A stretch of DNA of 64,000 bases from Rhodanobacter sp. C03 (lineage in GTDB: Bacteria > Pseudomonadota > Gammaproteobacteria > Xanthomonadales > Rhodanobacteraceae), in NCBI RefSeq assembly GCF_002001175.1, contig NZ_MUNT01000006.1, forward strand, positions 124,001 to 188,000. Reading direction: 5' to 3'. Position 1 is the stretch's first letter. Every line of letters starts with the position of its first letter. Both the position numbers and the translations under genes were made by a program. Positions 8,420 through 32,154 of this stretch are shown one piece after another. The notes beneath the pieces are model-generated. The model saw only the letters and a list, made by a program, of their open reading frames with translations. It did no database searches and had not been told where the DNA came from.

Positions 8420-8623
8420 ATGAGTTTCGGTACGGTCAAGTGGTTCAACGACGCCAAGGGTTTCGGTTTCATCTCACCCGAGGACGGCGGGGCGGACGTG
8501 TTCGTCCATTTTTCGGCGATCACCAGCAAGGGCTTTCGTAGCCTGCAGGAAGGTCAGCGCGTGCAGTTCGAAATTACCCAGGGGCCGAAGGGCGCTCAGG
8601 CTTCAGGTGTCGAAGCAGCCTGA
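8420..8623 (+). CDS. Cold-shock-domain RNA chaperone, CspA family
   Basis: The 67-residue single cold-shock domain starts [20 protein letters not shown], with RNP1 (KGFGFI) and RNP2 (VFVHFSAI) intact and the usual C-terminal GPKGAQA segment. It binds single-stranded RNA and DNA and melts mRNA secondary structure. It is a monocistronic gene with its own long leader and a strong intrinsic terminator at 8656-8684. Whether it is cold-induced or constitutive (CspD/CspE-like) cannot be read from the sequence. Confidence 0.95.
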
Positions 8624-8655
8624 TCATCCAGGCGAGCGTTGTACAGCAAGAATGA

Positions 8656-8684
8656 AACCCCGCATCCTGTGCGGGGTTTTTTGC
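8656..8684 (+). terminator. Intrinsic terminator of the cold-shock gene
   Basis: A GC-rich stem AACCCCGCA / TGCGGGGTT with a short loop is followed directly by a T tract, 33 bp after the cold-shock stop codon. This is a classic rho-independent terminator. Confidence 0.92.
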
Positions 8685-8705
8685 TTTGGTGACCTGGAGA
8701 ACGTG

Positions 8706-9755
8706 ATGACTGATCGCAGGCGTTTCCTGAAGGCCTCCGTACTGGGAGCCTCCGTTTCGATGCTGGCATGGGGCAACAAACTGATAGCCGGATCGGCGCC
8801 CCGAATACCGGCGACGACGACCGTACGGGTGGTTTCGACCTGGGATTTCGGCGTGGCTGCGAACCAGTCGGCGTGGGCCATCCTCGGCAAGGGCGGTCAT
8901 GCGCTGGATGCGGTCGAGGCCGGTGCGAGGGTGCCCGAGGCCGACCTGAAGAACCACAGCGTCGGCAGGGCCGGTTATCCGGATCGCGATGGCCACGTCA
9001 CGCTGGACGCCAGCATCATGGACGCCGACGGCAACTGCGGTGCGGTCGCCGCACTTGAACATATCGCCCATCCGATCTCGGTGGCACGCCGGGTGATGGA
9101 GCGCACGCCGCATGTCCTGCTGGTCGGCGAGGGCGCATTGCAGTTCGCGCTGGAACAGGGCTTCAAGAAAGAGAACCTGCTGACGCGGGAATCCGAGCAG
9201 GCCTGGCACGAATGGCTGAAGACGGCGAAGTACCAGCCCTCGATCAACAGCGAAGTGCATGACTACGGCAAGGACGGCAAGACAGGCATGCCCGGTGGCG
9301 CCGCCAACCACGACACCATCGGCATGCTGGCGCTGGATGCACAGGGCCGACTGGCCGGTGCCTGCACCACCAGCGGCATGGCGTGGAAGATGCGCGGCCG
9401 CGTCGGCGACAGCCCGATCATCGGCGCTGGCCTGTACGTCGATGGCGAGATCGGCGGCGCCACCTCCACCGGCGTCGGCGAGGAAGTGATCCGCAATGCC
9501 GGCAGCTTTCTCGTGGTCGAGCTGATGCGTCAGGGCCGTTCGCCGCATGAAGCCTGCAAGGAAGCAGTGATGCGCATCGTCAAGAAGCGCCGCGAAGCCT
9601 CCAAGACCCTGCAGGTCGGCTTCCTTGCGATGAACCGCGCAGGCGAAGTCGGCGCGTACGCGATCCAGCACGGCTTCTCCTACGCCGTGTGCGATGCGAA
9701 GAAACAGGATGGCTTGATCCCGTCGCAAAGCGTCTACACCACGAGCTATTCGTGA
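8706..9755 (+). CDS. Tat-exported N4-(beta-N-acetylglucosaminyl)-L-asparaginase / isoaspartyl peptidase family protein
   Basis: The start at ATG 8706 gives MTDRRRFLKASVLGAS, a twin-arginine signal that also fits the TAT_signal hydrolase pattern; GTG 8703 is an alternative. The mature part is a plant-type asparaginase (Ntn-hydrolase). It has WAILGKGGHALDAVEAG near residue 57, GNCGAVAALE, and the autoprocessing/catalytic threonine T204 in GGAANHDTIGMLALD, followed by CTTSGMAWKMRGRVGDSPIIGAGLYVD. Family members autocleave before that Thr and hydrolyse glycosylasparagine or isoaspartyl bonds; the HDTIG form points to the glycosylasparaginase branch. It is likely periplasmic. The stop overlaps the cutC start. 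Confidence 0.88.
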   Translation: MTDRRRFLKASVLGASVSMLAWGNKLIAGSAPRIPATTTVRVVSTWDFGVAANQSAWAILGKGGHALDAVEAGARVPEADLKNHSVGRAGYPDRDGHVTLDASIMDADGNCGAVAALEHIAHPISVARRVMERTPHVLLVGEGALQFALEQGFKKENLLTRESEQAWHEWLKTAKYQPSINSEVHDYGKDGKTGMPGGAANHDTIGMLALDAQGRLAGACTTSGMAWKMRGRVGDSPIIGAGLYVDGEIGGATSTGVGEEVIRNAGSFLVVELMRQGRSPHEACKEAVMRIVKKRREASKTLQVGFLAMNRAGEVGAYAIQHGFSYAVCDAKKQDGLIPSQSVYTTSYS

Positions 9756-10489
9756 TACTGGAAATCGCCGCCAACTCGGTTGCCTCCGCATTGGCCGCCC
9801 AGCAGGGCGGAGCGGGGCGGATCGAACTCTGCACCGCGCTGGAACTGGGCGGGCTGACGCCGTCGCATGCGCAGATCGCGTTGGCCCGCGAGCGTTTGCG
9901 CATCCCGCTGTACGTGCTGATCCGCCCACGCGCCGGCGATTTCCTCTACAGCCATATCGAGTGCGAGGTGATGTTGCGGGATATCGAAGCCTGCGTGGCG
10001 CTCGGCTGCGACGGCGTGGTACTCGGCGTACTCGATGCCGAGGGCAGGGTGGACATGCCACGCTGCCACGCATTGATTGCCGCGGCCGGGAAACTCGGCG
10101 TGACCTTCCATCGCGCCTTCGACCTCAGCCACGAGCCTGCACAGGCGCTGGAGGATATCGTCGCACTCGGCTGCGAACGCATCCTGACCTCGGGCGCGCA
10201 GGCCAGCGCACCGGAAGGTGCGGCGCTGATCCGCGAGCTCGTGGTGCAGGCCACGGGACGTCTCGCGGTGATGCCCGGCGCAGGCATCACCGCGCTGAAC
10301 ATCGCCGCGCTGGCCGCCACCACCGGCGCGCACGAATTCCACGCCTCGGCCAAACACCTGCTGCCATCGGGCATGCGGCACCAGCGGAATGTACTGACCG
10401 GGATGGAAGGCGGCGAACTGCGCAGTGACACCGAACAAGTGCGCTCGCTCGTTGCCGCACTGCACGCCTCGGCTCGTGAGTATCCCTGA
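9752..10489 (+). CDS. cutC: CutC family protein (copper homeostasis annotation)
   Basis: A GTG start at 9752 overlaps the TGA of the preceding gene. Translation from here gives MILEIAANSVASALAAQQGGAGRIELC, the canonical CutC N-terminus, whereas the open frame upstream is the shadow of the asparaginase. The 245-residue TIM-barrel shows LGGLTPSH, VLIRPRAGDFLYS, VLGVLDAEGRVD, FHRAFDLSHEPAQALEDI and VMPGAGI. CutC is historically linked to copper tolerance, but its biochemical role is unsettled. Close coupling with a glycosylasparaginase suggests shared expression rather than a copper context; no copper genes are adjacent. Confidence 0.9.
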   Translation: MILEIAANSVASALAAQQGGAGRIELCTALELGGLTPSHAQIALARERLRIPLYVLIRPRAGDFLYSHIECEVMLRDIEACVALGCDGVVLGVLDAEGRVDMPRCHALIAAAGKLGVTFHRAFDLSHEPAQALEDIVALGCERILTSGAQASAPEGAALIRELVVQATGRLAVMPGAGITALNIAALAATTGAHEFHASAKHLLPSGMRHQRNVLTGMEGGELRSDTEQVRSLVAALHASAREYP

Positions 10490-10511
10490 ACCCTGCAGGC
10501 AGCCAGCTTTT

Positions 10512-10587
10512 GTAGGAGCGACTTCAGTCGCGACGCTTTTGCTTCGGAACCCCCAAACAAAGCGTCGCGGCTGAAGCCGCCCCCACC
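10512..10587. repeat. GTAG-type REP doublet, second copy
   Basis: GTAGGAGCGACTTCAGTCGCGACGC and its partially diverged inverted partner (AGCGTCGCGGCTGAAGCCGCCCCCAC) are separated by a short spacer. The arms belong to the same family as 3846-3925, with compensatory changes in the small hairpin (GCGACTTCAGTCGC). It sits between cutC and fabV. Confidence 0.75.
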
Positions 10588-10704
10588 GTGGCCATCCAGC
10601 CTGCTGGACGACCCACCTGCGGCAGCATCATTCCCTACGGCAGCGCATGGCCGCCCCGCTTGGTTACTATGGCGAATTGCCGAGCCGTTCCAGGAGCCAT
10701 TGCC

Positions 10705-11907
10705 GTGATCATCAAGCCCAAAGTCCGCGGATTCATCTGCATCACCGCTCACCCGGTCGGTTGCGAACACAACGTGCTCGACCAGATCAAGGTCACCCAA
10801 GCCGCGGGCCACGCGAAAGGCAACGGCCCGAAGCGCGTGCTGGTGATCGGCGCCTCCACCGGCTACGGCCTGGCCTCGCGCATCACCGCGGCGTTCGGTT
10901 ACGGCGCGGCCACGCTCGGCGTGTTCTTCGAAAAGCCCAGTACCACGGAGAAAACCGGCACCGCCGGCTGGTACAACTCCGCCGCGTTCGACAAGGCGGC
11001 CAAGCAGGCTGGCCTGTACAGCAAGTCGATCAACGGCGACGCGTTCGCCAACGAAACCCGCGCGCGCGCGATCGAGATCATCAAGAACGAAATGGGCGGC
11101 CCGATCGACCTGGTGGTCTATTCGCTGGCCTCGCCCGTGCGCAAGCTGCCGGACACCGGCGAAGTGGTGCGCTCGGCGCTCAAGACCATCGGCCAGCCGT
11201 TCACCAACACCTCGGTCGACACCAACAAGGACACCGTGATCGAGGCCACCATCGAGCCGGCCACCGAGCAGGAAATCAAGGACACCGTCACCGTGATGGG
11301 CGGCGAGGACTGGGCGCTGTGGATCGACGCGCTGAGCGCCGCCGGCGTGCTGGCCGAACACGCCAAGACCGTCGCCTACAGCTACATCGGCACCGAAATC
11401 ACCTGGCCGATGTATTGGCACGGCACCCTGGGCCAGGCCAAGCAGCACCTCGACAACACCGCCAAGCAACTGCGCAGCCGCCACCCCGGCCTCGAAGCCT
11501 ACGTCGGCGTGATGAAGTCCGTCGTCACCCAGGCCAGCGCCGCCATCCCGGTGATCCCGCTGTACGTGTCCATCGCCTTCAAGATCATGAAGGAGAAGGG
11601 CATCCACGAAAATCCGATCGAACAGGCCAACCGCCTGTTCCACGACCGCCTCTACCGCGCCGACGGCACCGCCCCGCAAACTGACAACGAAGGCCGCTTG
11701 CGCCTCGACGATTGGGAACTGCGCGACGACGTCCAAGACGCCTGCAAAACCCTCTGGCCCACCGTCACCACCGAAAACCTCAAACAGATCACCGACTACG
11801 CCGGCTACAAGCACGAGTTCTTGCAGCTGTTCGGGTTTGATCGGGCGGATGTGGACTATGACGCTGAGGTGGAGGCGGATCGGCGGTTTGACTGTCTGGA
11901 GATTTGA
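10705..11907 (+). CDS. fabV: Trans-2-enoyl-[ACP]/CoA reductase FabV
   Basis: The frame is open from 10588, but a GTG at 10705 gives [21 protein letters not shown], the standard FabV N-terminus of a 400-residue protein. Key features are the NADH-binding [16 protein letters not shown] near residue 45, the YxxxxxxxK active-site pair in [10 protein letters not shown] and the C-terminal FAD-independent helical region ending in [13 protein letters not shown]. FabV catalyses the last step of the fatty-acid elongation cycle and is the triclosan-tolerant enoyl reductase common in Xanthomonadales. Gene order shows no fab operon. The family call is very secure; the exact start is less so. Confidence 0.94.
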
Positions 11908-11979
11908 GGAAACAGGGTGATTGGAGAGGTTGGGCAGCCTGATCTTTTTGGAAGACGGGCTTGGCTTTTTAGGGGAAGC

Positions 11980-14544
11980 ATGCCAATGGAATTGGAAGAG
12001 TGGTTCGAAGGACGGCCGAAGTGGCTGCAGACCGCTGCGGTGCTCAGGCTCGCGAAAGCAACCCTGACTGAGGCCGACTACCAGCAACTGTTCAATCTCT
12101 GCCAACAGGAATCGGAGAACATCAATCAAACGGGGTTCTCGTCGCTTTCGTCTGGCAGTCTGAATAACCCGGTGATGTCGCCTTCGGTGAGGATAGCGAC
12201 TATCCACGATCTGAAGGGCATCAATGCCCTGCGACCAGCAAGGCCGCTTGATTTCGCAGTGGGCGACAACGAACTCACTGTGGTGTATGGATTCAATGGT
12301 TCTGGCAAAAGCGGCTATTCAAGGTTGTTGAAGCATTTGTGCGGCTCCCGTTTTTGCGAAGATCTTCATCCCAATGCTTTCGATTCAGTGGTCACAGAGC
12401 AAACGGCAGGCGTCCAGATCCTTGTCAACGGTCAATCCGTGCCGCTCCAATGGCGAAAGGTTGATGGGCCGCTTGAGCCGCTTAGGCACGTACACATCTT
12501 CGACAGTGAGTGCGCGAGTAGCTACGTCAGCAAGTCGATTGAAGCGGCATTCGAGCCAGCCCCAGTAAGATTTTTGGCGGACCTGGTTGCTGACTGCGTC
12601 AAAGTTGGCCAAAAGTTTGATGACTTGATGGGCACGTACCGTTCGCGTCTTCCTCTGTTTCCACAAGAGCTTCAAGAAAGCGTTGCAGCAACGTGGTTAA
12701 AAGCACTGTCACCGACGACAACTGAGGCAGAGCTTCTTGAATGGTGCTCATGGAGCCTTGCTGAAACAACTGAGCTGGTGGGGCTGGATAGTGATTTGGC
12801 TCAGGCTGATCCTGTGTCGCTAGTCGCGGGCAAGAAACGCAAGAAGAGTGCGGCCGAACTACTCATCCTGAAATTGCATGGGTTTGAAAGTTCGTGGTCG
12901 TCAGCTGTTGCGGAGCAGATAGCAGTAGCCAGAGAACAGTTGGCTGCATGCAGACGAGTGGCTGCAGAAGCGGCTCAGCAAGTTTTTAGCGGAGCACCGC
13001 TGACAGGCATCGGTGAAGCGACGTGGCGAGCCTTGTGGGATGCCGCAAAAGTCTATTCGGAGAAAGTGGCCTATCCAGATCGCGCATTCCCTGTGCTAGA
13101 TGATGCGGTATGTGTGCTTTGCCAGCAGTCCATGTCGGCAGCAGGAAGCCAGCGCATGCAGAGCTTCAACGCGTTCGTGCAGGGTGCATTGGATGCCGCT
13201 GTGGTTGATGCCCAGGCGAGCTTGGACCGTCTTACGGTGGCGGTGGTAGATGCGCCAACTGCCGAAATACTTGCTGCTCAATTTGATGCAATTGACGTAT
13301 CGATGGATGCCGATTCTTTGCATAAGAAGCTTGGCGCGCAACGTGACGCGTTGATGAGCCATCAGTCAGGAGGATCGCTGCCGAGTCTTGATTTGACTGG
13401 TGTGATTCAGCCGATCGAGGCACATGTTGCAGAGCTCCAGATCGAAATATCGAACCTTGAGGCAACCGTCGATACCACAGAACGAGCCCGGAAACAGCAG
13501 CGCCGGAAGGGGTTGCGTGGGAAACAATGGCTGAGTCAGCAAGTAACAGCTGTACGTGAAGAGGTGCATCGACAAAAGGCTCTGGCGTCCCTTGCGACGG
13601 CGAAAAAACTCGCCAGCACCAATGCACTGACTCAAAAGAAGAATGATCTTGCTGCCGCTCTCTTGGCTACGGCGCATGCAAACCGTTTTGTCGTGGAGCT
13701 TCGTGAGTTGGGCGGAGACAAACTGCCGATCAAGATTCTTCCAACACGGGGCAGCCGAACGACACAACCAGGGTTTCAGGTTAGCCTTGAAGGTGCTTTG
13801 CGCTTGAGTCCGTCACAGGTTTTGAGCGAGGGGGAAAGCCGCATCGTTGCACTTGCTGCGTTCATGGCTGATGTGACCGCAGGGCCGGTGAACGTCCCAT
13901 TTGTCTTTGACGATCCGATTTCTTCACTCGACCAAAGGTTCGAAGAAGCGACGGCTCGCAGGTTGATACGGGAAGCGAAGGTTCGCCAGGTAATCGTGTT
14001 CACGCACCGGTTGTCGATGCTCGCGCTTCTTGACGATTTGAGCGGTGAAGAGGGCATTAAGGTTGATGTTGTGGCGCTTCGGGGTGCTCCGGAAGGGACG
14101 GGTACGCCAGGGCAGACGGCAATACGGGAGAAGAAGCCAGAGAAAGCTGTGAACAAGCTGCTGGGTGAACGTCTTCCCAAAGCTCGCAAGGCGCTCGCAG
14201 ACGGTGATCGTGAATCAGGCGAGATCCTGCTTCAATCCGTTTGCAGTGACTTCCGTGTTCTCGTTGAGCGGCTCATTGAAATGACCTTGCTGAATGGTGT
14301 AGTTCAGCGCTTTCAGAAGAACCTCACGACCAAGGACAAGCTCGCCGGCTTGGCCAAGATTCGGCCCGAAGACTGTGTGCTTCTGGAGTCGATGATGACC
14401 AAATATTCATACCAAGAGCATTCCCAGCCGCAAGAAACGCCAGTGCCGCTGCCGTCAACGGATGAGTTGGGAATCGACCTGAAGGCCGTTGTTGATTGGA
14501 TTCAGGAGTTTTCTACTCGTGGTGTGCCGTTGCCTGCGGGATGA
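11980..14544 (+). CDS. AAA_13-type ABC/SMC-like ATPase with zinc-hook CxxC (RloC/PrrC-like)
   Basis: The ATG at 11980 is preferred because AGGGG lies 5-6 nt upstream; an in-frame GTG at 11917 would add 21 residues. The 854-residue protein has Walker A GFNGSGKS (104-111), a long helical/coiled-coil middle with a Rad50-like hook CVLC (378-381), a second coiled coil, the ABC signature LSEGES (615-620), Walker B FVFDDPISSLD (D644/D645) and an H-loop H676. The C-terminal about 110 residues contain RVLVE (R759, E763) and a late YSYQEH (H814). These recall the Arg/Glu/His set of PrrC/RloC anticodon nucleases, though the spacing is longer. RloC-type proteins are DNA-damage-activated tRNA nucleases in phage exclusion. 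Base composition is visibly less GC-rich than that of its neighbours. The ATPase architecture is firm; the nuclease role is conjecture. Confidence 0.72.
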   Translation: MPMELEEWFEGRPKWLQTAAVLRLAKATLTEADYQQLFNLCQQESENINQTGFSSLSSGSLNNPVMSPSVRIATIHDLKGINALRPARPLDFAVGDNELTVVYGFNGSGKSGYSRLLKHLCGSRFCEDLHPNAFDSVVTEQTAGVQILVNGQSVPLQWRKVDGPLEPLRHVHIFDSECASSYVSKSIEAAFEPAPVRFLADLVADCVKVGQKFDDLMGTYRSRLPLFPQELQESVAATWLKALSPTTTEAELLEWCSWSLAETTELVGLDSDLAQADPVSLVAGKKRKKSAAELLILKLHGFESSWSSAVAEQIAVAREQLAACRRVAAEAAQQVFSGAPLTGIGEATWRALWDAAKVYSEKVAYPDRAFPVLDDAVCVLCQQSMSAAGSQRMQSFNAFVQGALDAAVVDAQASLDRLTVAVVDAPTAEILAAQFDAIDVSMDADSLHKKLGAQRDALMSHQSGGSLPSLDLTGVIQPIEAHVAELQIEISNLEATVDTTERARKQQRRKGLRGKQWLSQQVTAVREEVHRQKALASLATAKKLASTNALTQKKNDLAAALLATAHANRFVVELRELGGDKLPIKILPTRGSRTTQPGFQVSLEGALRLSPSQVLSEGESRIVALAAFMADVTAGPVNVPFVFDDPISSLDQRFEEATARRLIREAKVRQVIVFTHRLSMLALLDDLSGEEGIKVDVVALRGAPEGTGTPGQTAIREKKPEKAVNKLLGERLPKARKALADGDRESGEILLQSVCSDFRVLVERLIEMTLLNGVVQRFQKNLTTKDKLAGLAKIRPEDCVLLESMMTKYSYQEHSQPQETPVPLPSTDELGIDLKAVVDWIQEFSTRGVPLPAG

Positions 14545-14608
14545 ATGTTCCGACGTCTTATTGCACGCTTAAATGATGCATGCAAATGCTCCCGCGCCCT
14601 GATCGGAT

Positions 14609-15355
14609 ATGCCGATGCCACCACTGCTAGCCATTGTTGAAATATTGGAACGCAGCGACCAAGGCGTGACACGGCCGTTCCTGTGTCGCTGCGATGACGG
14701 CAATTTGTACTACGTGAAGGGTCGTGGGGCTGGACGAAGTAGCCTTCTGTGCGAGTGGTTGGCGGGACATTTGGCGCTTGCGTTTAATCTACCGATACCG
14801 CCATTCGCCGTCGTCGAAGCGCCGCAGTCGTTGGTCGAGCTTTTTCCGGAAGGAGGGGATCTCGGCGCAGGGCCAGCCTTTGGTTCGCGGGTGGTGGCGC
14901 ACACCCAAGAGTTGTCAATGTCGCATCTTGGCGACGTGCCTATGCAGCTGCAGCGCGACGTGCTGATGTTCGACTGGTGGGTCCGCAACTCGGATCGAAC
15001 GCTGACTTCACTCAGTGGCAACCCGAATCTGTTGTGGGATGCCGATGCGAAGCAGCTGGTGGTGATCGACCACAATGTGGCGTTCGATCATGACTTTAGC
15101 ATTCAGTCGTTCAGCGAAACGCATGTGTTTAGACAAGAGGTTCCGAAGGTATTTCAAGACCTTGTGGAGCGTCTGTCGTATGCCAAACGGTTGCATGCGG
15201 CGCTGGCAGCTTGGCCCGCTGCCTGCCAGAATGTCCCTGACGAGTGGTGGTTCGCAGACGAGGAACGCACGGTTCCCGCAGACTTCGACCCAGACGCCGT
15301 ACTGGCGTCATTGAACCGCTGCACGCACGAAGATTTCTGGAGGTTAGCGCCATGA
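14609..15355 (+). CDS. HipA-like kinase-fold protein (HipA_2 type)
   Basis: This 248-residue protein resembles the small HipA-like kinases rather than full-length HipA (about 440). Visible elements are an ATP-lysine segment YYVKGRGAGRSSLLCEWLAG (K37), the FDWWVRNSDRTLTS motif (D122, catalytic-loop D129) and LVVIDHNVAFD (D154, metal-binding type). There is no HipB-like antitoxin beside it. Its TGA overlaps the ATG of a DUF3037 gene, and from memory these two families often travel as a pair. Together with the upstream ATPase it forms a three-gene co-directional cassette. Serine/threonine kinase activity and targets are unproven; low GC and a repeat at the cassette end suggest transfer. Confidence 0.72.
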   Translation: MPMPPLLAIVEILERSDQGVTRPFLCRCDDGNLYYVKGRGAGRSSLLCEWLAGHLALAFNLPIPPFAVVEAPQSLVELFPEGGDLGAGPAFGSRVVAHTQELSMSHLGDVPMQLQRDVLMFDWWVRNSDRTLTSLSGNPNLLWDADAKQLVVIDHNVAFDHDFSIQSFSETHVFRQEVPKVFQDLVERLSYAKRLHAALAAWPAACQNVPDEWWFADEERTVPADFDPDAVLASLNRCTHEDFWRLAP

Positions 15356-16188
15356 ACAGGTTCGCCTGCCAATACGCGATCATCCGCTTTCTGCCCTATG
15401 CAGAAACGGGCGAGTTCGCCAATGTCGGCGTGGTGCTGGCATGCCCGGCGAGTGGTTACTTCGGTGCGAAGCTGATGCCGGTCAAGAAGACCGGTCGTAT
15501 CACCGGCTTCTTCGAGCAGTTGGACAAGCGTATCTATCGTGAGGCGATGGCTTATCTGAGAGATGAGCTGGAGCGCCTTGACGAGCTGGTATGTGAGCGG
15601 GGTGCGGGAAACCAGGGCTTCGTGCAGCAAACCTTTGCAGGGCTCACCCGGCCACGCGAGGCCTTGCTGCGCTTTGGCGAAACCCGCGTGATTCTTGCCG
15701 AGGAGCCTGCCGAGACGTTACGCAAACTGTTTGCCAATTTTGTCGAGCGGGAATTCGCTAGCAAGGAGTACCACGATCAAGTGCTCGAACGTGGTGTGCG
15801 CGAGACCTTGCGTAAAGCCAACTTGCGTGAATACTTCAAGCCGGCTGAGATTGGCAACGACAACCTGCACATCAATGTGCCGTTCGTGTATCAGCGCGAT
15901 GGGCTTGTGCAACTTGCCATCAAGCCGCTCGACTTGGCCAAGGATGAGCCTAACAACGTGTTCGACCTTGGTGGCCATTGGGTAGATCGTGTGCGGCGTT
16001 TGGGCAAGCATCAGCTCCTGCCAGAGCGGATGTTATTTGCTGTGAGATTGCCTGGTACGGCAAATGAAGGAGCGCGCAAGGCTGCCAACGAAATCATCGG
16101 CGAGCTGCGTGAGCAAAACATCGTGGTTGCTGCATCCACCGACGCGGCGGCGATCACGAAGTTTGCTGCAGGCGCCTCGATTAAGTAG
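15352..16188 (+). CDS. DUF3037 family protein
   Basis: The start at ATG 15352 overlaps the kinase stop (ATGA), which indicates translational coupling. The open frame upstream is inside the kinase gene. The 278-residue product begins MNRFACQYAIIRFLPYAETGEFANVGVVLACP, the characteristic DUF3037 N-terminus. A helical middle follows with RYXR/FVEREF-type segments, and the C-terminus has DLGGHWVDRVRRLGK. No catalytic motif or membrane segment is evident. The family has no established function. Pairing with a HipA-like kinase suggests it is a partner, target or neutralising factor; this is inference from gene order only. Confidence 0.75.
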   Translation: MNRFACQYAIIRFLPYAETGEFANVGVVLACPASGYFGAKLMPVKKTGRITGFFEQLDKRIYREAMAYLRDELERLDELVCERGAGNQGFVQQTFAGLTRPREALLRFGETRVILAEEPAETLRKLFANFVEREFASKEYHDQVLERGVRETLRKANLREYFKPAEIGNDNLHINVPFVYQRDGLVQLAIKPLDLAKDEPNNVFDLGGHWVDRVRRLGKHQLLPERMLFAVRLPGTANEGARKAANEIIGELREQNIVVAASTDAAAITKFAAGASIK

Positions 16189-16191
16189 TGT

Positions 16192-16215
16192 GGGAAAAGG
16201 TGTCAGAGACAATTT
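16192..16215 (+). repeat. Dispersed repeat GGAAAAGGTGTCAG, copy 1
   Basis: GGGAAAAGGTGTCAGAGACAATTT lies 4 bp after the DUF3037 stop. The same core recurs at 16771, 23392 and 32155. Copies 1 and 2 are direct repeats bracketing a broken LuxR gene copy. Confidence 0.8.
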
Positions 16216-16346
16216 CTGACGCGCATAGCTCTCCGTGGCCATCAACTGCCTAGGCAGAAACCCGAGTCAAAGTGCACTTCAATAAGTCGGATTCTTTGGG
16301 TGCGCTCCGGCCAAGCAGTTCCCCGAGAAGCTCTGAACTGGACCGA

Positions 16347-16380
16347 GGCCGCCCGGTGTCAAACCGGGCGGCCTTTTCTT
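16347..16380 (+). terminator. GC hairpin with T-rich tail (probable intrinsic terminator)
   Basis: The stem GGCCGCCCGGT / ACCGGGCGGCC with a 5-nt loop is followed by TTTTCTT. It lies 160 bp downstream of the DUF3037 stop and just upstream of a LuxR gene fragment. The intact LuxR copy at 23711 has a diverged version of the same stretch at 23618-23655, so the hairpin may travel with the duplicated unit. Confidence 0.6.
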
Positions 16381-16434
16381 GCCGCCCGCGCCCCAGCGCT
16401 AAGATGACCTCGTATGGGGCGAGCGGAGACGGGG

Positions 16435-16766
16435 ATGTGGAAGCGGGTGGTCGGCTACGGGGCGTTGCTGGCGGCGGGAACGCTCGCCCTGCAGTGGCTC
16501 GACTACCAGCGCCTGGCGCGGATGCATTCGGGCGACGTCTACTTGTTCCTGGTCGCGGCCGCCTTCCTGGTGCTGGGCATCGTGCTGGGCGTGCGGGTGT
16601 TCGCCGCGCCGGCGCCGGCCGCCTTCGACGGCAACCCGAAGGCGCAGGCGGCGTTGAGGCTGAGCGAGCGAGATCTGGAGGTGCTGCACGAACTGGTCGC
16701 CGGCCACTCCAACAAGGAGATCGCGGCGCACCTCCACATTTCGCCGAGAAGCTGGGCGCGAAGCGG
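16435..16766 (+). pseudogene. Broken copy 1 of the small membrane LuxR-type regulator
   Basis: It is near-identical to the intact gene at 23711-24124 through two membrane helices and the first part of the helix-turn-helix (SNKEIAAHLHISP). A 34-bp deletion then removes the recognition helix: the sequence jumps from TCGCCGA to GAAGCTGGGCGCG, with short CGA repeats at both edges of the deletion. The frame shifts, and five bases later (16771) the GGAAAAGGTGTCAG repeat begins. A functional DNA-binding domain is not encoded. Confidence 0.8.
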
Positions 16767-16770
16767 AAAC

Positions 16771-16794
16771 GGGAAAAGGTGTCAGGGACAATTT
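16771..16794 (+). repeat. Dispersed repeat GGAAAAGGTGTCAG, copy 2
   Basis: GGGAAAAGGTGTCAGGGACAAT begins five bases after the end of the recognisable LuxR fragment. It is in the same orientation as the copy at 16192, so the broken LuxR unit is flanked by direct repeats about 580 bp apart. Confidence 0.8.
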
Positions 16795-16909
16795 CCGCCT
16801 GTATTGATGTCCTGCCGCATGGCGTTTGGTGCGGCCGAATTTTCCTTGACACCATTCTTGTGCCGTTTTGGGCTTGCAAGCGGGGCGCGCTGTTACTTGC
16901 GCGGGGCCT

Positions 16910-17857
16910 TCATGTTTTTGTGCCCTTGCCCGAAAGGGGATGCGGTCTGGCTTCCTTCGGGATGCACGGAGGTTTGCCAAGAAGCTCGACCAGCCGCGAC
17001 TCGCATGGGGAGAAATCATGACCCCGTCGTTGCGAGATCACGAACGTGAGCGGACCAAGGTGCCAGGCGCGGCGTTCAAGTTCGACGAGCTCTCCCTTTG
17101 CCAGATCCTCGCCGACGAGGTGTCGCGGCAGGTGTCCCCAGCCGAGGCCGGCCTTGAGAAGGTCACGCTTGGCGCCGAGATCATTGACCAGCCACAGCCG
17201 CTTGCCGGCAACGCCCTGTTGGGTTTTCTCCGCTTCCGGTTGGTTGTCCGTCACGACGATTTGAACATGTCGACTCAACTCGTCCTGCGGGACGGGTTTC
17301 GGTAGTGAAGCGAGGGGATGGGATGGCGCACATAGCGTCACCATCTGCGCATCGCACAGCCAGTGGCGTTCGATGGCGTCCGGGTTGACTTCCGGTACGT
17401 TCTCGACCGTGATGGCCAGCGCGCACACCTTTTCCAGCACCAGTCTCTCGCCGCCCTGCATGGTCGTGATGCGCAGGTTGATCGCTGCGGTTGGGAACTC
17501 CGCTTGCAGCGTCCGCAAACCGTCAATGAGGTGTGCGCGCGGGAAGTAGACATCGACCGCCACCGAAAGCTGGGGTGCGCCGACTCGGGCGATCGAGCCG
17601 GCGCGGCTCTTCATTTCTTCCGTGCGTGAGATGACCGCCCGCGCGTCCGGCAGCAGGCTGCGTCCCGCCGCGGTGAGCTGCGCCTTGCGTGTATTGCGAT
17701 CGAACAATTCGACATCGAAGGCGCTTTCCAGCGCCTTGATCGCGTGGCTGATGGCCGACTGCGCGCGACCGAGTTGCCGTGCTGCACCCGAGAAGCTTCC
17801 CTGATCGCATACCGCAACGAACGAACGCAGTTGGTTGATGGTGACGTTGTCGAGCAT
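16910..17857 (-). CDS. LysR-family transcriptional regulator
   Basis: The start at 17857 gives MLDNVTINQLRSFVAVCDQGSFSGAARQLGRAQSAISHAI, the typical LysR winged-helix start; a further 14 codons upstream (to 17899) are unlikely. The 315-residue protein has the N-terminal HTH (about 5-65) and a C-terminal effector-binding domain in which PQLSVAVDVYFP opens subdomain 1. It is divergent from a short-chain dehydrogenase 108 bp away, the classic arrangement in which LysR controls the divergent operon. The gap holds an 11-bp palindrome (17876-17886). The ligand is unknown. Confidence 0.9.
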   Translation of the reverse strand: MLDNVTINQLRSFVAVCDQGSFSGAARQLGRAQSAISHAIKALESAFDVELFDRNTRKAQLTAAGRSLLPDARAVISRTEEMKSRAGSIARVGAPQLSVAVDVYFPRAHLIDGLRTLQAEFPTAAINLRITTMQGGERLVLEKVCALAITVENVPEVNPDAIERHWLCDAQMVTLCAPSHPLASLPKPVPQDELSRHVQIVVTDNQPEAEKTQQGVAGKRLWLVNDLGAKRDLLKAGLGWGHLPRHLVGEDLAKGELVELERRAWHLGPLTFVISQRRGHDFSPCESRLVELLGKPPCIPKEARPHPLSGKGTKT

Positions 17858-17875
17858 ACATATCCAAAAACAAGA

Positions 17876-17886
17876 TCTTATTAAGA
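17876..17886. promoter_or_regulatory. Palindrome TCTTATTAAGA, candidate LysR operator
   Basis: A perfect 11-bp dyad lies in the 108-bp divergent region between the LysR gene and the SDR operon, 19 bp from the LysR start. LysR boxes are short AT-rich dyads in this position. No footprint-type evidence is possible here. Confidence 0.4.
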
Positions 17887-17965
17887 CATATTTCGTCAAT
17901 TGTATTGATGTGTCAACAGAACCATCTTCGTCAGGACCTTAAACAAGAAACGAAGGATGCATGAC

Positions 17966-18700
17966 ATGAACAGACTGAATGGAAAGACGGCGGTGATCAC
18001 GGGCGGCGCTACCGGCATCGGACTCGCCGCAGCCAAGCGCTTCATCGAGGAGGGCGCTTTCGTCTTCATCTTCGGCCGCCGGCAGGACATGCTCGACGCC
18101 GCGGTGGCTGACCTCGGGCCCCATGCCCGCGCGGTGAAGGGCTCGGTCTCGGATGAGGCCGACCTCGACCGACTCTACGCGGCGGTGAAGGCTGAGCGCA
18201 AAACCTTGGACATCGTCTTCGCCAATGCCGGGGCGGGCAGCCCGCTTGCACTCGGCGAGATCACCGCCAGGCACATCGACGAAACCTTCGACACCAATGT
18301 GAAGGGCACGATCTTCACGGTCCAGAAGGCGCTGCCGCTGATGGGCGAGGGCGGTTCGATCATCCTGACCGGATCGAGTGCCGGCACCACGGGCGCGCCG
18401 GGATTCACTGCCTACAGCGCGAGCAAGGCGGCGGTGCGCAACCTCGCGAAGACCTGGGCGGAGGATCTGAAGGGCACCGGCATCCGGGTGAACGTGCTGT
18501 CGCCCGGAGCGACGGCGACCGAACTGGCGAAGGCGGCGTTGGGCGAAGAGGGCCAGAAGGCCTATGGCGCGATGACTCCGCTCCAGCGCATGGCCGATCC
18601 GTCGGAGATCGCGGCCGCGGCTGCCTTTCTCGCGTCGCCAGACAGCAGCTTCATGACCGCCAGCGAGCTCGCCGTCGACGGCGGCCTGGCGCAACTCTGA
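17966..18700 (+). CDS. Short-chain dehydrogenase/reductase (classical SDR) 1
   Basis: ATG 17966 is chosen because GAAGGA sits 8 nt upstream; ATG 17957 would overlap that site. The 244-residue enzyme has the NAD(P) motif TGGATGIG, NAG in FANAGAG, and the catalytic Ser with YSASK (SSAGTTGAPGFTAYSASK). FGRR after beta-2 suggests NADPH preference. The C-terminus SELAVDGGLAQL is typical of classical SDRs of about 245 residues. It is the first gene of a three-gene run under a divergent LysR gene. The substrate cannot be deduced. Confidence 0.9.
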   Translation: MNRLNGKTAVITGGATGIGLAAAKRFIEEGAFVFIFGRRQDMLDAAVADLGPHARAVKGSVSDEADLDRLYAAVKAERKTLDIVFANAGAGSPLALGEITARHIDETFDTNVKGTIFTVQKALPLMGEGGSIILTGSSAGTTGAPGFTAYSASKAAVRNLAKTWAEDLKGTGIRVNVLSPGATATELAKAALGEEGQKAYGAMTPLQRMADPSEIAAAAAFLASPDSSFMTASELAVDGGLAQL

Positions 18701-18784
18701 CGCGCTACGCCTGGGTGGTCACTCCATTCGATATCCGGAGCCCGCAGGGCGTAGTCAACAATGAAAAGCAAAAAGGAAAAGCAC

Positions 18785-19552
18785 ATGAACAACCATAGTG
18801 GACAAAAACTGGCTGGAAAAATTGCGGTCATTACAGGCGGAAGCAGCGGGATTGGCTTGGCCACAGCCAAGCGCTTCGTGGAAGAAGGTGCGCACGTCGT
18901 GATCACCGGGCGACGAGAGAAAGAGCTGAAGGAGGCCGCCGCCTCCATCGAGAGAAACGTCACGACGGTCGTGGGCGACGTGTCGCGCCTCGAAGATCTG
19001 GACCGGCTCTATGCTGTCGTGAAAGAGAAGCATGGTCACATCGACATTCTCTTCGCGAACGCGGGCGCAGGGACACTCGCACCGCTTGCGGTAGCTACTG
19101 AGGACCATTTTGATCAGACCTTCGACGTGAACGTGAAGGGCATGTTCTTTACGGTGCAGAAGGCCCTTCCCCTCTTCAAAGATGGCGGTTCGATCATCCT
19201 GACCTCTTCGGTCTCAAACGTGCTCGGGCTTCCAGGATTTACTGCTTACGCCGCGAGTAAGGCGGCTGTGCGCAACCTCGCGCGCGGCTGGGCCAAGGAA
19301 TTGATAGATCGCAAGATCCGCGTGAATTGCATGAGCCCCGGAGCAATTGATACCCCGGCCCTAGCGACGACGGCGGGCCTTACCCCTGAACAGGTCGAGC
19401 AAGCAATCGCACAGTTCACCACGCAGATCCCCATGGGCCGCAGAGGCATGCCCGAGGAAATCGCCGCAGCAGTCGTGTTCCTCGCCTCCGATGAAAGTTC
19501 TTACATCACCGGTATAGATCTTCCCGTCGATGGGGGCATGGCGCAGGGCTAA
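18785..19552 (+). CDS. Short-chain dehydrogenase/reductase (classical SDR) 2
   Basis: ATG 18785 (MNNHSGQKLAGKIAVITGG) follows an AGGAAAAGCAC leader; an in-frame ATG at 18761 would add eight lysine-rich residues. The 255-residue protein has TGGSSGIG, a TGRREKE NADPH-type acceptor, FANAGAG and YAASK. It is clearly paralogous to SDR 1, sharing the blocks VQKALPL and GFTAY(S/A)ASKAAVRNLA. Its base composition is less GC-biased than SDR 1, so the pair may not be a simple recent duplication. It probably acts with its neighbour on related substrates. Confidence 0.9.
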   Translation: MNNHSGQKLAGKIAVITGGSSGIGLATAKRFVEEGAHVVITGRREKELKEAAASIERNVTTVVGDVSRLEDLDRLYAVVKEKHGHIDILFANAGAGTLAPLAVATEDHFDQTFDVNVKGMFFTVQKALPLFKDGGSIILTSSVSNVLGLPGFTAYAASKAAVRNLARGWAKELIDRKIRVNCMSPGAIDTPALATTAGLTPEQVEQAIAQFTTQIPMGRRGMPEEIAAAVVFLASDESSYITGIDLPVDGGMAQG

Positions 19553-19606
19553 CCCTGGCGCGGTCCCCCGTACGCTCGTCGAATATCAACCGTAAAGGAG
19601 ATCCCT

Positions 19607-20239
19607 ATGTACAACCAAACCAAGCAATCCGAGTTGATCCGGTTCGCACGAGTCGAGGCGGGCTCCACCGTCATCGACGTTTACCCAGGCGATGGCGACT
19701 GGACCCGTCTCTTCTCCGACATCGTGGGACCCGAAGGACGGGTCTACAGCTTCGTGCCGGCCGAAGTCGCCCACTTCAAGAACGATCCGGTCGGCGGCAT
19801 GCGGACGCTTGCGAAGGAGCCGGGCCGAGAGAACGTCGAAGCCGTCTCGGCGGACCTCGTGGCGATGCCGGAGGTCACGCAACCAGCGGATGTGCTGTGG
19901 CTGCACCTGTTCTACCACGATCTCCACACCGCGCTTATGCAGGCCAAAGGCGCGACGGCGGCGGAGTTCAATCGAGCTGTCTACGAGCGGCTGAAGTCCG
20001 GTGGGTCCTACGTCATCGTAGACCACGCCGCCGCCGTCGGGACGGGCACGAGCGACGCCCAGTCGCTGCATCGGATTGAGCCTGCCACCGTTCGCGAGGA
20101 GGTGGAGGCGGCCGGCTTCGTACTGGATGCGGAAAGCACCATGCTCGCGAACAAGGACGATCCGCACTCGATCAAGGTGTTCGATCCCTCGATCAAGGGC
20201 GAGACCGATCGCTTCGTCTATCGGTTCGTGAAGCCCTGA
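19607..20239 (+). CDS. Class I SAM-dependent methyltransferase-like protein
   Basis: The 210-residue product starts after a good AAAGGAG site. A Rossmann-type motif I variant, VIDVYPGDGDWTRLFSDIVGPEGRVYSF, is near residue 22. An acidic motif (VLWLHLFYHDLH), GGSYVIVDHAA and a C-terminal KVFDPSIKGETDRFVYRFVKP follow. It is likely a methyltransferase of the small predicted-methyltransferase group often found with oxidoreductases. It lies 54 bp after SDR 2. The substrate is unknown. Confidence 0.75.
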   Translation: MYNQTKQSELIRFARVEAGSTVIDVYPGDGDWTRLFSDIVGPEGRVYSFVPAEVAHFKNDPVGGMRTLAKEPGRENVEAVSADLVAMPEVTQPADVLWLHLFYHDLHTALMQAKGATAAEFNRAVYERLKSGGSYVIVDHAAAVGTGTSDAQSLHRIEPATVREEVEAAGFVLDAESTMLANKDDPHSIKVFDPSIKGETDRFVYRFVKP

Positions 20240-20495
20240 CAGGTCCCGGCTTCGTGCCCACTTCGGCAAGGCGGCAACCGGGCAACCGGGACGGAGGAAG
20301 TTAAGTCGAATGGGTTGTGCGCGTTCACCTGATCGCACGTCCAAGGACCCGGCAGCACGGCGTGAGCGGGCAACGGCCCAAAAAGAATTCAGGTTGAAAT
20401 CGCGCTGAGCTGGACGAACGATGGCCGCCGATGCTGCATCGATTGTTCACGCCAGCAAAAGCACACTCGAGTTCTGATTCCCGGAATGTCTTGCC

Positions 20496-21011
20496 ATGTC
20501 CGATATCCGCCGCGACTCCCAAGCCGGGCCGACCGATACGCGCAAGCCCCGCAACCATGGGTGGCTGCGTGTCATCGCGGTATACAAGGCCGCCAAGACC
20601 ATCGGCTTGGTCCTCGTGGCGATCGCGGCCTTCCATCTGGATCGTTCGCAGAACTTCGAACATCTGGTGCACTGGCTGGAGCAGTTGTCGCTGAGTGATA
20701 GCAACGGCCTGCGCTGGAGGCTGGTGGAGAAGCTGCAGTCGATGGGCCCGAGCAAGTTCGTGGCGATCGGACTGGTCGCGCTGGCCTATGCCGCGGTCTT
20801 TGCGACCGAGGGCATTGGGCTGTGGTTGCAGAAGTACTGGGCGGAATGGTTCACGGTAGTCGCCACCGGCTCGCTGGTGCCGCTGGAAATCTACGAGGCC
20901 GTGCACCGTTTCAGCGGGTTCAAATTGGTTGCGCTGATCGCCAACATCGCGATCGTCGCGTATCTGGTACGCGTCGCCCTGCAGTCACGGCAATCGCGCT
21001 CATTGGAGTGA
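20496..21011 (+). CDS. DUF2127 family membrane protein
   Basis: The 171-residue protein has an amphipathic start with WLRVIAVYKAAKTIGLVLVAIAAF (first membrane segment), a central soluble loop, FVAIGLVALAYAAVFATEGIGLW (second), and LVPLEIYEAVHRFSGFKLVALIANIAIVAYLV (third and fourth). This matches the DUF2127 pattern of small four-helix inner-membrane proteins. No function is established. The 256 bp before it (20240-20495) show nothing recognisable beyond loosely complementary GC tracts. A truncated toxin gene follows. Confidence 0.75.
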   Translation: MSDIRRDSQAGPTDTRKPRNHGWLRVIAVYKAAKTIGLVLVAIAAFHLDRSQNFEHLVHWLEQLSLSDSNGLRWRLVEKLQSMGPSKFVAIGLVALAYAAVFATEGIGLWLQKYWAEWFTVVATGSLVPLEIYEAVHRFSGFKLVALIANIAIVAYLVRVALQSRQSRSLE

Positions 21012-21105
21012 TCGGACCCCTTCCGGGAAATGGTGGTGTACTTTTCGTTTGCTGCTGTGCTGAAAAAGCTTGAAGCACGATTGGCCAAGGCAGCGAAGCT
21101 TCGGC

Positions 21106-21186
21106 ATGACATTCAAGATCCGCTTCGCAGAGGAAGCGTTGGTCGACCTTGAACCGCTGTATGACTTTGCCTTGGCACACCAGCAT
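21106..21186 (+). pseudogene. N-terminal fragment of a ParE/RelE-family toxin
   Basis: The 27 residues MTFKIRFAEEALVDLEPLYD followed by FALAHQH match the first beta strand and helix of ParE-like toxins. Homology then stops at a TAA created where the second LuxR gene copy begins (21187). A short open frame overlapping it in another register (21030-21152, containing LKKLEARLAKAAKLRHD) could be the end of a lost antitoxin, but this is weak. The toxin cannot be functional. Confidence 0.6.
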
Positions 21187-21221
21187 TAAGATGACCTCGT
21201 ATGGGGCGAGCGGAGAAGGGG

Positions 21222-21538
21222 GTGTGGAAGCGGGTGGTCGGTTACGGGGCGCTGCTGGCGGCGGGAACGCTCGCCCTGCAGTGGCTCGACTACCAGCGCC
21301 TGGCGCGGATGCATTCGGGCGACATCTACCTGTTCCTGGTCGCGGCCGCCTTCATGGTGCTGGGCATCGTGCTGGGCGTGCGGGTGTTCGCCGCGCCGGC
21401 GCCGACGACCTTTGACGGCAACCCGAAGGCACAGGCGACGCTGGGTCTGAGCGAACGGGAGCTGGAGGTGCTGCACGAACTGGCCGCTGGCCACTCCAAC
21501 AAGGAGATCGCGGCGCGCCTCCACATTTCGCCGAAAAA
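21222..21538 (+). pseudogene. Broken copy 2 of the small membrane LuxR-type regulator
   Basis: It corresponds closely to the intact gene at 23711 from its start (here GTG instead of ATG) through SNKEIAARLHISP. It stops at TCGCCGAA, exactly where a 20-bp inverted repeat begins (21539). Homology to the duplicated unit begins on the left at 21187 (TAAGATGACCTCGTATG). The recognition helix is missing. Confidence 0.8.
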
Positions 21539-21591
21539 AGTAAGAGGCTCTGACCCAGATATTCATGTGCGAAATCAGGGCGCTTCTTGAA

Positions 21592-21633
21592 CACCAGCGC
21601 ACTCTTTGGAAAGTTTCAAAGAGTGCGCTGGTG
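21592..21633. terminator. Strong hairpin at the 3' side of the passenger gene
   Basis: A perfect 17-bp stem, CACCAGCGCACTCTTTG and its complement, with an 8-nt loop lies 14 bp past the stop of the minus-strand gene. There is no long T tract on the minus strand, so termination is plausible but not certain. It may be part of the element's end. Confidence 0.55.
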
Positions 21634-21646
21634 CTGTCTTATTGAA

Positions 21647-23272
21647 TCAATGCCTTGCTACGCCCAGCGGCGTGGCATTGTCGAAGCGGGTTTTCATGCG
21701 TTTGGCAAGATTCGGTTTGGTCGCAGCCGACATGAGGTTGCCGTCGCTGGTTGAAATGCCGTTCGAAGCACCGAGCATGAAATCGCTGCCGTCATCATTC
21801 GTGATACGGAAACCCGTGGGGCCGTAGACATCGAAGTTGTTGGAGCCGTTGCTTTCGGTGGACGTAATCGTGACATAGCCATATGCGTTGGTGGTAATGG
21901 ATGAAACATCGCCCGACGTAGATGAGCCGGCAATCGATGCATACGCCAGGTTTGATTCCCGAACTTGAATTGCAGACGCACCTTGATTGGTTCCGATATA
22001 AAGAAACCCGTTGCCGCTTGCCATAAAGGTTTGTGTGTGGCTGCCGCCAATGAGAGGCAAGGTGAGTGTCCCAGTGAGATTCATGGTGACCTTATCTTCA
22101 TCCAGGGTGAATGTATCTTTTTTCGTATATACATAGAGGGTCACGCCACTCCCGCTTCCTTCCGCATCGCCAACAACGTAAATGTTGCGCGTGACGGTAT
22201 TGCCGTTCGCCACTTCATTGCCTTCAATAGCCGCACCGATGTGACCAAATGGCTCCAGGCGACCGGCGCCATAGCAGCCATCGCTGCCATCCTGAAAGTA
22301 GCCGCACGTTACCCATTCCATCGCCGTATATGAATACAAAAAGTTGTAGGTGGTGAAAAACCCATAATCGATTGGGGTGGCGACATTGGAGGCAGCCAGA
22401 GTGTCCGACAGCGCAGTTTTTCCGAGTCGCTTTTTCATGCGTGTCGCAGGATTCGTTTCAGTTGGATACGATATGAAGTTGCCGTTGCCAGTCGAAATGC
22501 CATTCGTAGTATCGAGCATGAAATCACTGCCACCACCATCTTCAGCCAGGTGGCCAGTGGGGTCCAAGCTATAGAAGCCGCTGGAGTAGGTATTGTTGTT
22601 GTAGGAAGTAACAGTCACGTAGCCATATTTATCGGTGGTAATGGAGGAATCACCCTCAGGCGGTGAAAATCCGCCGCCCAGTCCGTTAATAAGATTGGAT
22701 TCATCGATTTGGACGTATCCATTAGTTTGGTTGTTCCCGACATAAAGCAGGCCGTTGTCACCAGCCATGTAGGTTTTCGTATTGCTGCCACCCTGGAGAG
22801 GCAGTGCAACGGATTGTGCGAGATTCACGCTGACCATATCGCCGGTTGAGGCCACTTCGTCCGTTTTCGTATAGACATAAAGAGTCACCCCGGTTCCACT
22901 ACCCGCTGCATCGTCCACGACATAGATGTCACGCGTGACCGTATTGCCGTTCGCCACCGGATTACCCTCGACAGCTGCGCCGACGTGGCCGAACGGTCCC
23001 ATGCTCCCGTAGCCATAGCAGCTGTGGGATTCCAATTGGTAGCCGCATGCAGCCCAATTCAGGTTGGTGTAGCTATTCGAGAAGGAATAGGTGGTGTAGA
23101 ACGCGGCATCAGGGAGAACATTCGGGTTCCGCGGAAGAATTCTCGGCGGAAGAATTCCGATGTTTTGCGCGCTATGGATTGTCGGGGTTTGTGCACTTAA
23201 TGGTAACGCCAGGATGCTGGCAAGCAGAAAGCCGCTGACCAGCAGCGTATGTCGGTTGCGTATGATGCGCAT
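21647..23272 (-). CDS. Secreted protein with two tandem copies of an unknown ~230-residue domain
   Basis: This is a 541-residue protein with a signal peptide (LLVSGFLLASILALPLSAQ, cleavage near residue 28). Two homologous halves are visible (about 52-285 and 300-530). Each contains an aromatic opening (AAFYTTYSFSNSYTNLNWAACGY versus a similar segment), GPFGHVGAAVEGN or EPFGHIGAAIEGN, then NGNTVTR(D/N)IYVV, GVTLYVYTK, and an ITT(D/N)(K/A)YGYVTVTS block before a GSDFMLD/GSDFMLG and NGIST end. Paired cysteines (ACGY with HSCYG) suggest a disulphide. I do not recognise the family. The gene is less GC-rich than its surroundings and is the sole cargo of the inverted-repeat-bounded segment. Confidence 0.8.
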   Translation of the reverse strand: MRIIRNRHTLLVSGFLLASILALPLSAQTPTIHSAQNIGILPPRILPRNPNVLPDAAFYTTYSFSNSYTNLNWAACGYQLESHSCYGYGSMGPFGHVGAAVEGNPVANGNTVTRDIYVVDDAAGSGTGVTLYVYTKTDEVASTGDMVSVNLAQSVALPLQGGSNTKTYMAGDNGLLYVGNNQTNGYVQIDESNLINGLGGGFSPPEGDSSITTDKYGYVTVTSYNNNTYSSGFYSLDPTGHLAEDGGGSDFMLDTTNGISTGNGNFISYPTETNPATRMKKRLGKTALSDTLAASNVATPIDYGFFTTYNFLYSYTAMEWVTCGYFQDGSDGCYGAGRLEPFGHIGAAIEGNEVANGNTVTRNIYVVGDAEGSGSGVTLYVYTKKDTFTLDEDKVTMNLTGTLTLPLIGGSHTQTFMASGNGFLYIGTNQGASAIQVRESNLAYASIAGSSTSGDVSSITTNAYGYVTITSTESNGSNNFDVYGPTGFRITNDDGSDFMLGASNGISTSDGNLMSAATKPNLAKRMKTRFDNATPLGVARH

Positions 23273-23670: not shown

Positions 23671-23710
23671 GGCGCTAAGATGACCTCGTATGGAGCGAGC
23701 GGAGACGGGG

Positions 23711-32152: not shown

Positions 32153-32154
32153 TT

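Follow-up and report, generated by a model that had tools for sequence, protein, structure and literature searches.

Two probably independent defence units, an RloC-class ATPase and a HipAD pair, side by side behind a fabV-like gene of Rhodanobacter sp. C03

Directly behind a fabV-like gene of Rhodanobacter sp. C03 (assembly GCF_002001175.1, contig NZ_MUNT01000006.1), three co-directional genes encode a zinc-hook ATP-binding cassette (ABC) ATPase (P0001), a HipA_2 kinase (P0002) and a DUF3037 protein (P0003). The whole stretch of DNA analysed here, 64,000 nucleotides long and corresponding to contig positions 124,001 to 188,000, is called the window, and all positions are counted within it. 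An earlier sequence-only reading had described the three genes, all of which are present as open reading frames (ORFs), and had proposed that they form an uncharacterised defence module. The question raised by this locus is whether the trio is one system or several. It very probably represents two defences that act independently and arrest translation, each of a kind already known, juxtaposed in an apparent hotspot behind the fabV-like gene. Both units are already separate candidates in PADLOC, as PDC-S06 and PDC-M66.

The gene neighbourhoods of the ATPase do not support one module. Sixty ATPase loci (39 + 21) were compared, drawn from plasmids (six places out of 265 records), from genus- to class-level relatives, from two metagenome-assembled genomes and from viral contigs. 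The sample of the order contributed 25 of its 31 ATPase rows, window included, the six weaker rows being left out. L033 and L035 are pieces of one genome, L038 and L039 are closely alike, and the flanks are short in L029, L033, L035, L145, L153 and L215. An intact HipAD pair (kinase and DUF3037 protein) adjoins the ATPase gene at a single locus, that of the window, and a HipD (DUF3037) remnant at one other; neither is found at the remaining 58. The ATPase is absent from every intact HipAD locus examined except that of the window, and linkage between the two units is not conserved. A single three-gene module was rejected, as 58/60 ATPase loci are without kinase and DUF3037 in the DNA examined. 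The trio is not family core genome either: the ATPase query matches 6 of 100 relatives (own genome and one weak match counted) and the DUF3037 query 15, and congener homology stops at the fabV-like gene.

The ATPase is 854 amino acids (aa) long, from an ATG at 11980 to a stop at 14544; the frame is also open from a GTG at 11917. It matches Pfam AAA_13 (E 4.5e-13), and its best PADLOC models are those of PDC-S06, with 909.6 bits across residues 3-847 for model PDLC04893. All 17 members of the ATPase alignment A2 match four PDC-S06 models. A zinc hook (CxxC, C378/C381) is present in 57 of 58 aligned sequences, including the window, and the 58th is without that part. In the same alignment the ABC motifs, namely Walker A, signature, Walker B/D-loop and switch His, are kept at G104/K110 (56/58), S616, D644/D645 and H676 (57/58) and G618 (53/58). 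The C-terminal domain carries the triad R759-X3-E763-X50-H814, of which R759 and E763 are found in 57/58 sequences and H814 in 56/58; the exceptions are gaps in L148 and L151, genes spread over several frames. The spacing between E and H is 48-52 in all 56 rows. The triad is likewise invariant in 20 aligned ATPases, window included. A second set of 17, with 14 new sequences that come from viral contigs, has no invariant columns in the C-terminal domain besides R, E, R and H.

The predicted structure shows the same architecture. In the AlphaFold model (mean predicted local distance difference test, pLDDT, 83.5; predicted template modelling score, pTM, 0.55) long helices lie on either side of the zinc hook, and the head resembles SMC/Rad50 heads, with a Z of about 19 over residues 69-722 in a fold search. 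The C-terminal domain modelled alone is a helical bundle (mean pLDDT 83). A PDB sequence search returned SMC, Rad50, AriA and ABC-transporter heads (best E 0.0004). No chain named PrrC or RloC is among the fold-search matches listed, which is uninformative. A search of one plasmid collection at E <= 1e-5 gave relatives of the ATPase in 265 records, and in 118 of these the match spans 80% of the query or more. The ATPase alignment search of viral contigs gave 17 loci; phage records gave no match at E <= 1e-5.

The 2008 definition of RloC rests on ABC motifs and on a coiled-coil insert that carries a CX2C zinc hook (PMC2610378; this paper, like the others cited below, is represented by excerpts). 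Near the C-terminus of RloC stands Arg-X3-Glu-X36-52-His, and mutating any of the three residues abolished the nuclease; according to the same excerpts, a Ser frequently but not obligatorily precedes the His. Compared with RloC through this published motif definition, the window ATPase is best read as a putative RloC-class tRNase, or anticodon nuclease, so that the SMC/RloC-like zinc-hook ATPase of the sequence-only reading is borne out. The PADLOC library carries no description for PDC-S06. Pseudomonas aeruginosa PA14 is credited with two RloC orthologues (PMC2610378), and PADLOC gives two PDC-S06 in the same strain (PMC11878078); this matching count suggests, without proving it, that PDC-S06 includes RloC.

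Judged by their sequences, the second and third genes are a HipAD toxin-antitoxin pair, a published phage defence (DS-6, PDC-M66; PMC12548924, PMC13092281), and the defence character claimed for the parts agrees with this. The kinase (248 aa) matches Pfam HipA_2 (PF20613) with 316.9 bits and P0003 (278 aa) matches DUF3037 (PF11236) with 85.7 bits, in accordance with the family names first given to them. All three expected families, AAA_13 included, were thus recovered by Pfam, and the PADLOC defence scan matched PDC-S06 and PDC-M66. The two genes overlap by 4 nucleotides (ATGA). Kinase residues N127, D129, R130 and N140 are identical in 40/40 aligned kinases and D154 in 39/40 (L062 and L087-L089, with low scores, were left out). 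These five residues presumably form the active site, as in HipA.

The pairing of the two genes is nearly constant. A kinase adjoins DUF3037 in 43 of 44 DUF3037 loci (34/34 and 9/10 in two locus sets), which cover 7/20 plasmid records, 1/3 phage records and 10/24 order-sample rows. At a further locus, L087, a weak Pfam DUF3037 match was missed by our own profile, and the kinase is present there too. The 20 plasmid records with a relative of P0002 are the same 20 that have a relative of P0003. Viral-contig scans with the single proteins P0003 and P0002 gave no relative, and a PDB sequence search gave no match for either protein at E <= 0.1. In L062 and L079 the kinase frame is broken and DUF3037 is open, and in L190 only a DUF3037 remnant is left. 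These cases, few as three are, would show a loss of the toxin preceding that of the antitoxin, which fits a toxin-antitoxin pair.

Some loci deviate from this simple layout. In L064:8933-10785, tandem DUF3037 genes follow one kinase, and the second copy is split across two frames. A short-type pair (L052-L060, L078, L196-L199) consists of a kinase followed by a DUF3037 protein that matches the first half of the long-type model; it is frequent in family f2 of the order.

Experimental work on relatives has been described. In Retron-Sda1, deletion of the HipA kinase ended the defence against Bas51 and deletion of DUF3037 was toxic, while the reverse transcriptase (RT) and the non-coding RNA (ncRNA) were dispensable for HipAD defence (PMC12548924). 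The same kind of pair was named DS-6 and renamed HipAD, and a catalytic mutation of its kinase ended defence (PMC13092281). In one phage record, which has the pair beside cI, the two genes are labelled HipA toxin and HipD antitoxin. A search of the open-access literature by the name HipAD gave no paper on this system by title among the matches listed.

Several observations weigh against two independent units of these classes. Of the 398 genomes in the order sample, 30 have the ATPase and 23 have DUF3037; the two share 6 genomes where 1.7 are expected (P 0.004, uncorrected for phylogeny). This test takes both family searches as covering the same 398 genomes, and the count depends on the query, since the DUF3037 of G080 is recognised with the Pfam model and falls below the order-sample cut-off. 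The two lie close together in 2 of the 6 shared genomes. The excess leaves room for a loose functional tie without fixed linkage. The PADLOC matches of P0002 and P0003, to PDC-M66A and PDC-M66B, are weak (52 and 61 bits). On the side of the ATPase, a Ser directly precedes the triad His in only 1/56 rows, the window having Glu there, and the PADLOC PrrC model matches only residues 641-681, with 16.5 bits. The HEPN match of its C-terminal domain is weak as well, with a best Foldseek E of 0.57, and VIA Z is 8.6 for HEPN toxins vs 9.2 for unrelated ferlin bundles. Because these weak matches tie with unrelated helical bundles, the HEPN fold is not claimed as shown; we infer it from the motif and from the placement of the RloC and PrrC nucleases in HEPN (PMC3710099).

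The genes upstream of HipAD differ among related species. The window HipAD has DNA homology to G012, G041 and G945 (79, 75 and 73% identity over most of both genes), and each of these has a different sequence upstream of the pair. Homology to relatives (loci L062, L063 and L191) starts at 14609-14636, at or just past the kinase start codon. The upstream genes were identified by ORF search, Pfam scans and searches with the proteins so found. An hsdS gene lies directly upstream in G945, G943 and G797, and hsdR in G886. In G012, HipAD comes after a Schlafen/AlbA_2 gene that ends an hsdR-hsdM-hsdS run, and in G010 hsdRMS adjoins the HipAD kinase. G041, with broken Schlafen pieces and an hsdS-like match without Pfam confirmation, was counted as probable. 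Type I restriction genes accompany HipAD in 6 clear and 1 probable of the 11 known long-type loci in the order (G000, G010, G012, G019, G041, G050, G797, G831, G886, G943 and G945; the G762 remnant is excluded). The stretches searched in G019, G050 and G831 gave no type I restriction match, and the window has the RloC-class gene instead. Over all HipAD loci, 7/44 have type I restriction matches in the stretch examined, and over the ATPase loci 6/56. An S24 peptidase-type protein is found upstream of HipAD in L087 and L095, and the upstream gene in L004 is annotated cI. Elsewhere in the host genome, on a different contig, lies a single gene with two HsdS specificity domains, and queries with type I restriction proteins gave no match in window 4001-26000. 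Judged by title and abstract opening, none of the open-access papers among the matches listed deals with HipAD in type I operons; an earlier description of this embedding is possible.

HipAD resembles a cassette docked behind changing defence genes. It is conceivable, with a low probability, that it is a mobile add-on that repeatedly docks directly behind hsdS, hsdR, Schlafen/AlbA_2, RloC, retron and phage repressor genes and acts as a second translation-arresting stage, firing once the upstream system is inhibited or lost. RloC in the window would then replace the type I operon of related species, giving two layered translation stops in one transcript. A rival explanation, which we regard as unlikely, makes the trio a two-stage unit: HipAD would be a portable back-up cassette at the 3' end of defence genes, reading the state of its upstream partner through co-transcription or antitoxin turnover. 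The seven order loci with type I restriction genes, the positions elsewhere after S24/cI-type repressors (L004, L087, L095) and a retron (PMC12548924), and the 64-bp gap between co-directional genes in the window are in its favour. Against it, only 7/44 HipAD loci have type I restriction matches, and closely related HipAD pairs (79% DNA identity to G012) have different partners, which argues against specific coupling. Moreover, the HipAD of Retron-Sda1 defended without RT or ncRNA, according to the excerpts of PMC12548924.

It is improbable that the ATPase instead lacks nuclease function and serves in repair or on plasmids as an SMC/Rad50-like protein. Its Rad50/SMC-like head and its relatives on many plasmids (the 265 records, 118 of them with high query coverage) would fit such a role, but the R-X3-E...H triad is kept wherever the residue is present, with the spacing published for RloC, and Rad50, SbcC and T4 gp46 are described as being without such a C-terminal region (PMC2610378). 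A dedicated, rare and so far undescribed three-gene system, with the ATPase sensing and HipAD executing, is hardly credible, for although the co-directional arrangement is tight and a HipD remnant adjoins a second RloC-type gene (G762, L190:8660-11826), both partners are missing from the DNA examined at 58 of the 60 ATPase loci (some flanks being short), the divergent remnant, which lies upstream of the ATPase on the other strand, consists of a C-terminal half and has no kinase, and the ATPase carries its own predicted effector domain.

For two juxtaposed units, a mechanism can be proposed by analogy with relatives. The Rad50/SMC-like head and the zinc-hook coiled coil would sense DNA damage or foreign DNA, and they may keep the C-terminal RNase silent until triggered. 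The triggered ATPase would then cut tRNA, and translation would stop. In Acinetobacter baylyi, DNA breaks switch RloC on, and the tRNAs that it disrupts are tRNA-Glu and tRNA-Gln (PMC3874168). In the second unit, HipD is expected to neutralise the HipA kinase, and infection or the loss of HipD would release the kinase and lead to growth arrest. The RloC-class unit and HipAD most likely act separately, and both would stop translation. The architecture, the conserved residues, the pairing of kinase and DUF3037, the missing linkage of the ATPase to the pair and the variable site are seen in the sequences themselves. In the window, tRNA cleavage, its trigger, the antitoxin role of P0003 and protection against phages are presumed from work on relatives.

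This offers a likely mechanism, RloC-class tRNA cleavage, for the undescribed PADLOC candidate family PDC-S06. It also reveals that HipAD stands behind different genes in related species. Should the docking prove functional, natural partner swaps would allow a direct test of whether toxin-antitoxin pairs guard other immune systems.

The site itself is variable. The fabV-like protein, named FabV in the sequence-only reading and putatively that enzyme, is matched in 40 of 45 genomes of the genus, and 30 loci are given, own included. In all 29 other congener loci, homology to window 8501-22000 ends at 11894-11931, at the stop of the fabV-like gene (11907); this comparison reached at most 1.5 kb past that gene. 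In longer stretches of ten congeners, pieces of window 16338-42185 reappear at some distance in several. For PADLOC, the next 9 kb of nine congeners were sampled for ORFs of 150 aa or longer (68 ORFs; L134, with 2.9 kb, was left out). They matched 167 models at E <= 1e-10, and the 25 models listed match 1-2 ORFs each; individual scans covered 20 of the 68. G042 has a protein of another PDC-S06 subfamily (946 bits) as well as a type IIG restriction enzyme (L129:14442-16673, L129:16774-19818). In the same region, PADLOC assigned bSEFIR to G021 and an OLD/AriA-like ATPase to G016; G014 has a partial PDC-S73 match, and G022 has a kinase matching PD-T4-6, which is a broad kinase model. A Drt2-type match among the 68 ORFs is not assigned to a congener. 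Genes matching PADLOC defence models lie past the fabV-like gene in at least 4 of the 9 congeners, or in 5 of 9 with the broad kinase model counted. Because homology stops at the fabV-like gene and congeners carry other defence-model genes there, the site looks like a defence hotspot, a reading based on how varied the defence models at this one place are.

The features of the locus are collected in Table 1. The lower GC content noted for the trio is confirmed, at 0.54-0.57 vs 0.62-0.67 upstream. In 11800-16400, a promoter scan found no sigma-70-like site (1.5 expected) and a terminator scan found 3 terminator-like sites (5.9 expected); both are uninformative.

Table 1. Features of the trio and its borders in the window.
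Feature	Position	Strand	Basis or remark
RloC-class ABC ATPase (P0001), zinc hook and predicted C-terminal RNase domain	11980..14544	+	ORF, Pfam, PADLOC PDC-S06, alignments
ATPase C-terminal domain, mostly helical, carries R-X3-E-X50-H triad	14122..14541	+	Alignment, AlphaFold model, fold search
64-bp gap, ATPase to kinase	14545..14608	.	HipAD homology to relatives begins at or just past right edge
HipA_2 kinase (P0002), putative HipAD toxin	14609..15355	+	Pfam; conserved N127, D129, R130, N140, D154
DUF3037 protein (P0003), putative HipD antitoxin	15352..16188	+	Pfam; 4-nt overlap with kinase stop
Left edge of variable region	11894..11931	.	Homology to 29/29 congener fabV loci stops here
25-nt repeat GGGAAAAGGTGTCAGAGACAATTTC, directly past DUF3037 stop	16192..16216	+	Further copies 16771, 23393

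The region downstream had been described as full of repeats, which is real in part only, as far as a 25-nt repeat and copies of a LuxR-type gene are concerned. In the window, the repeat GGGAAAAGGTGTCAGRGACAATTYC is found at 16192, 16771 and 23393 and, in weaker form, at 32154. With up to 3 mismatches allowed, it has 7 matches in the genome, every one in the forward direction of its contig; the reversed control has 0. The LuxR-type regulator gene copies lie at 16414-17049, 21201-21590 and 23690-24124. The first copy aligns with no more than positions 3-32 of the GerE model, the third with the whole of it; the second appears, by eye, cut off at the same place as the first. DNA pieces of these copies are found again in congeners. 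A 541-aa ORF (21647-23272), in a low-GC stretch and with an internal duplication by eye, has no Pfam match at E <= 0.001.

In comparison with known systems, the window ATPase shares with RloC the Rad50-like ABC head split by a coiled coil with a CX2C zinc hook, as well as the C-terminal R-X3-E...H triad. Its E-H spacing of 50 lies within the published range, and its length falls inside the 658-897 aa given for RloC (PMC2610378). There, RloC was linked to type I or III restriction genes in 8/73 cases; type I genes are found here at 6/56 ATPase loci. RloC differs by the frequent Ser before the His, which the window ATPase does not have. PDC-S06 is matched over nearly the full length of the protein, and the RloC reading of this family is added by the present analysis. 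PrrC also combines an ABC ATPase with an R-E-H anticodon nuclease domain, but the excerpts describe it as half the size, without the zinc-hook insert and linked to type I restriction genes.

The window pair resembles HipBA in its HipA-type kinase toxin. Unlike HipBA, HipAD has the toxin gene first. Its partner is a DUF3037 protein, described in the excerpts of PMC13092281 as without similarity to HipB. With HipAD (DS-6, PDC-M66) the pair shares the order of a HipA_2 kinase gene followed by an overlapping DUF3037 gene, and the conserved kinase residues. DS-6B (HipAD) was described with DUF3037 and DUF1829 (PMC13092281), whereas Pfam, at E <= 0.01, gave only DUF3037 for P0003 and no DUF1829. This second domain is not taken as defining HipAD, as the excerpted description of the Retron-Sda1 protein makes no mention of it (PMC12548924). 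What sets the window HipAD apart from the published HipAD (DS-6) is the gene upstream, which here is of the RloC class.

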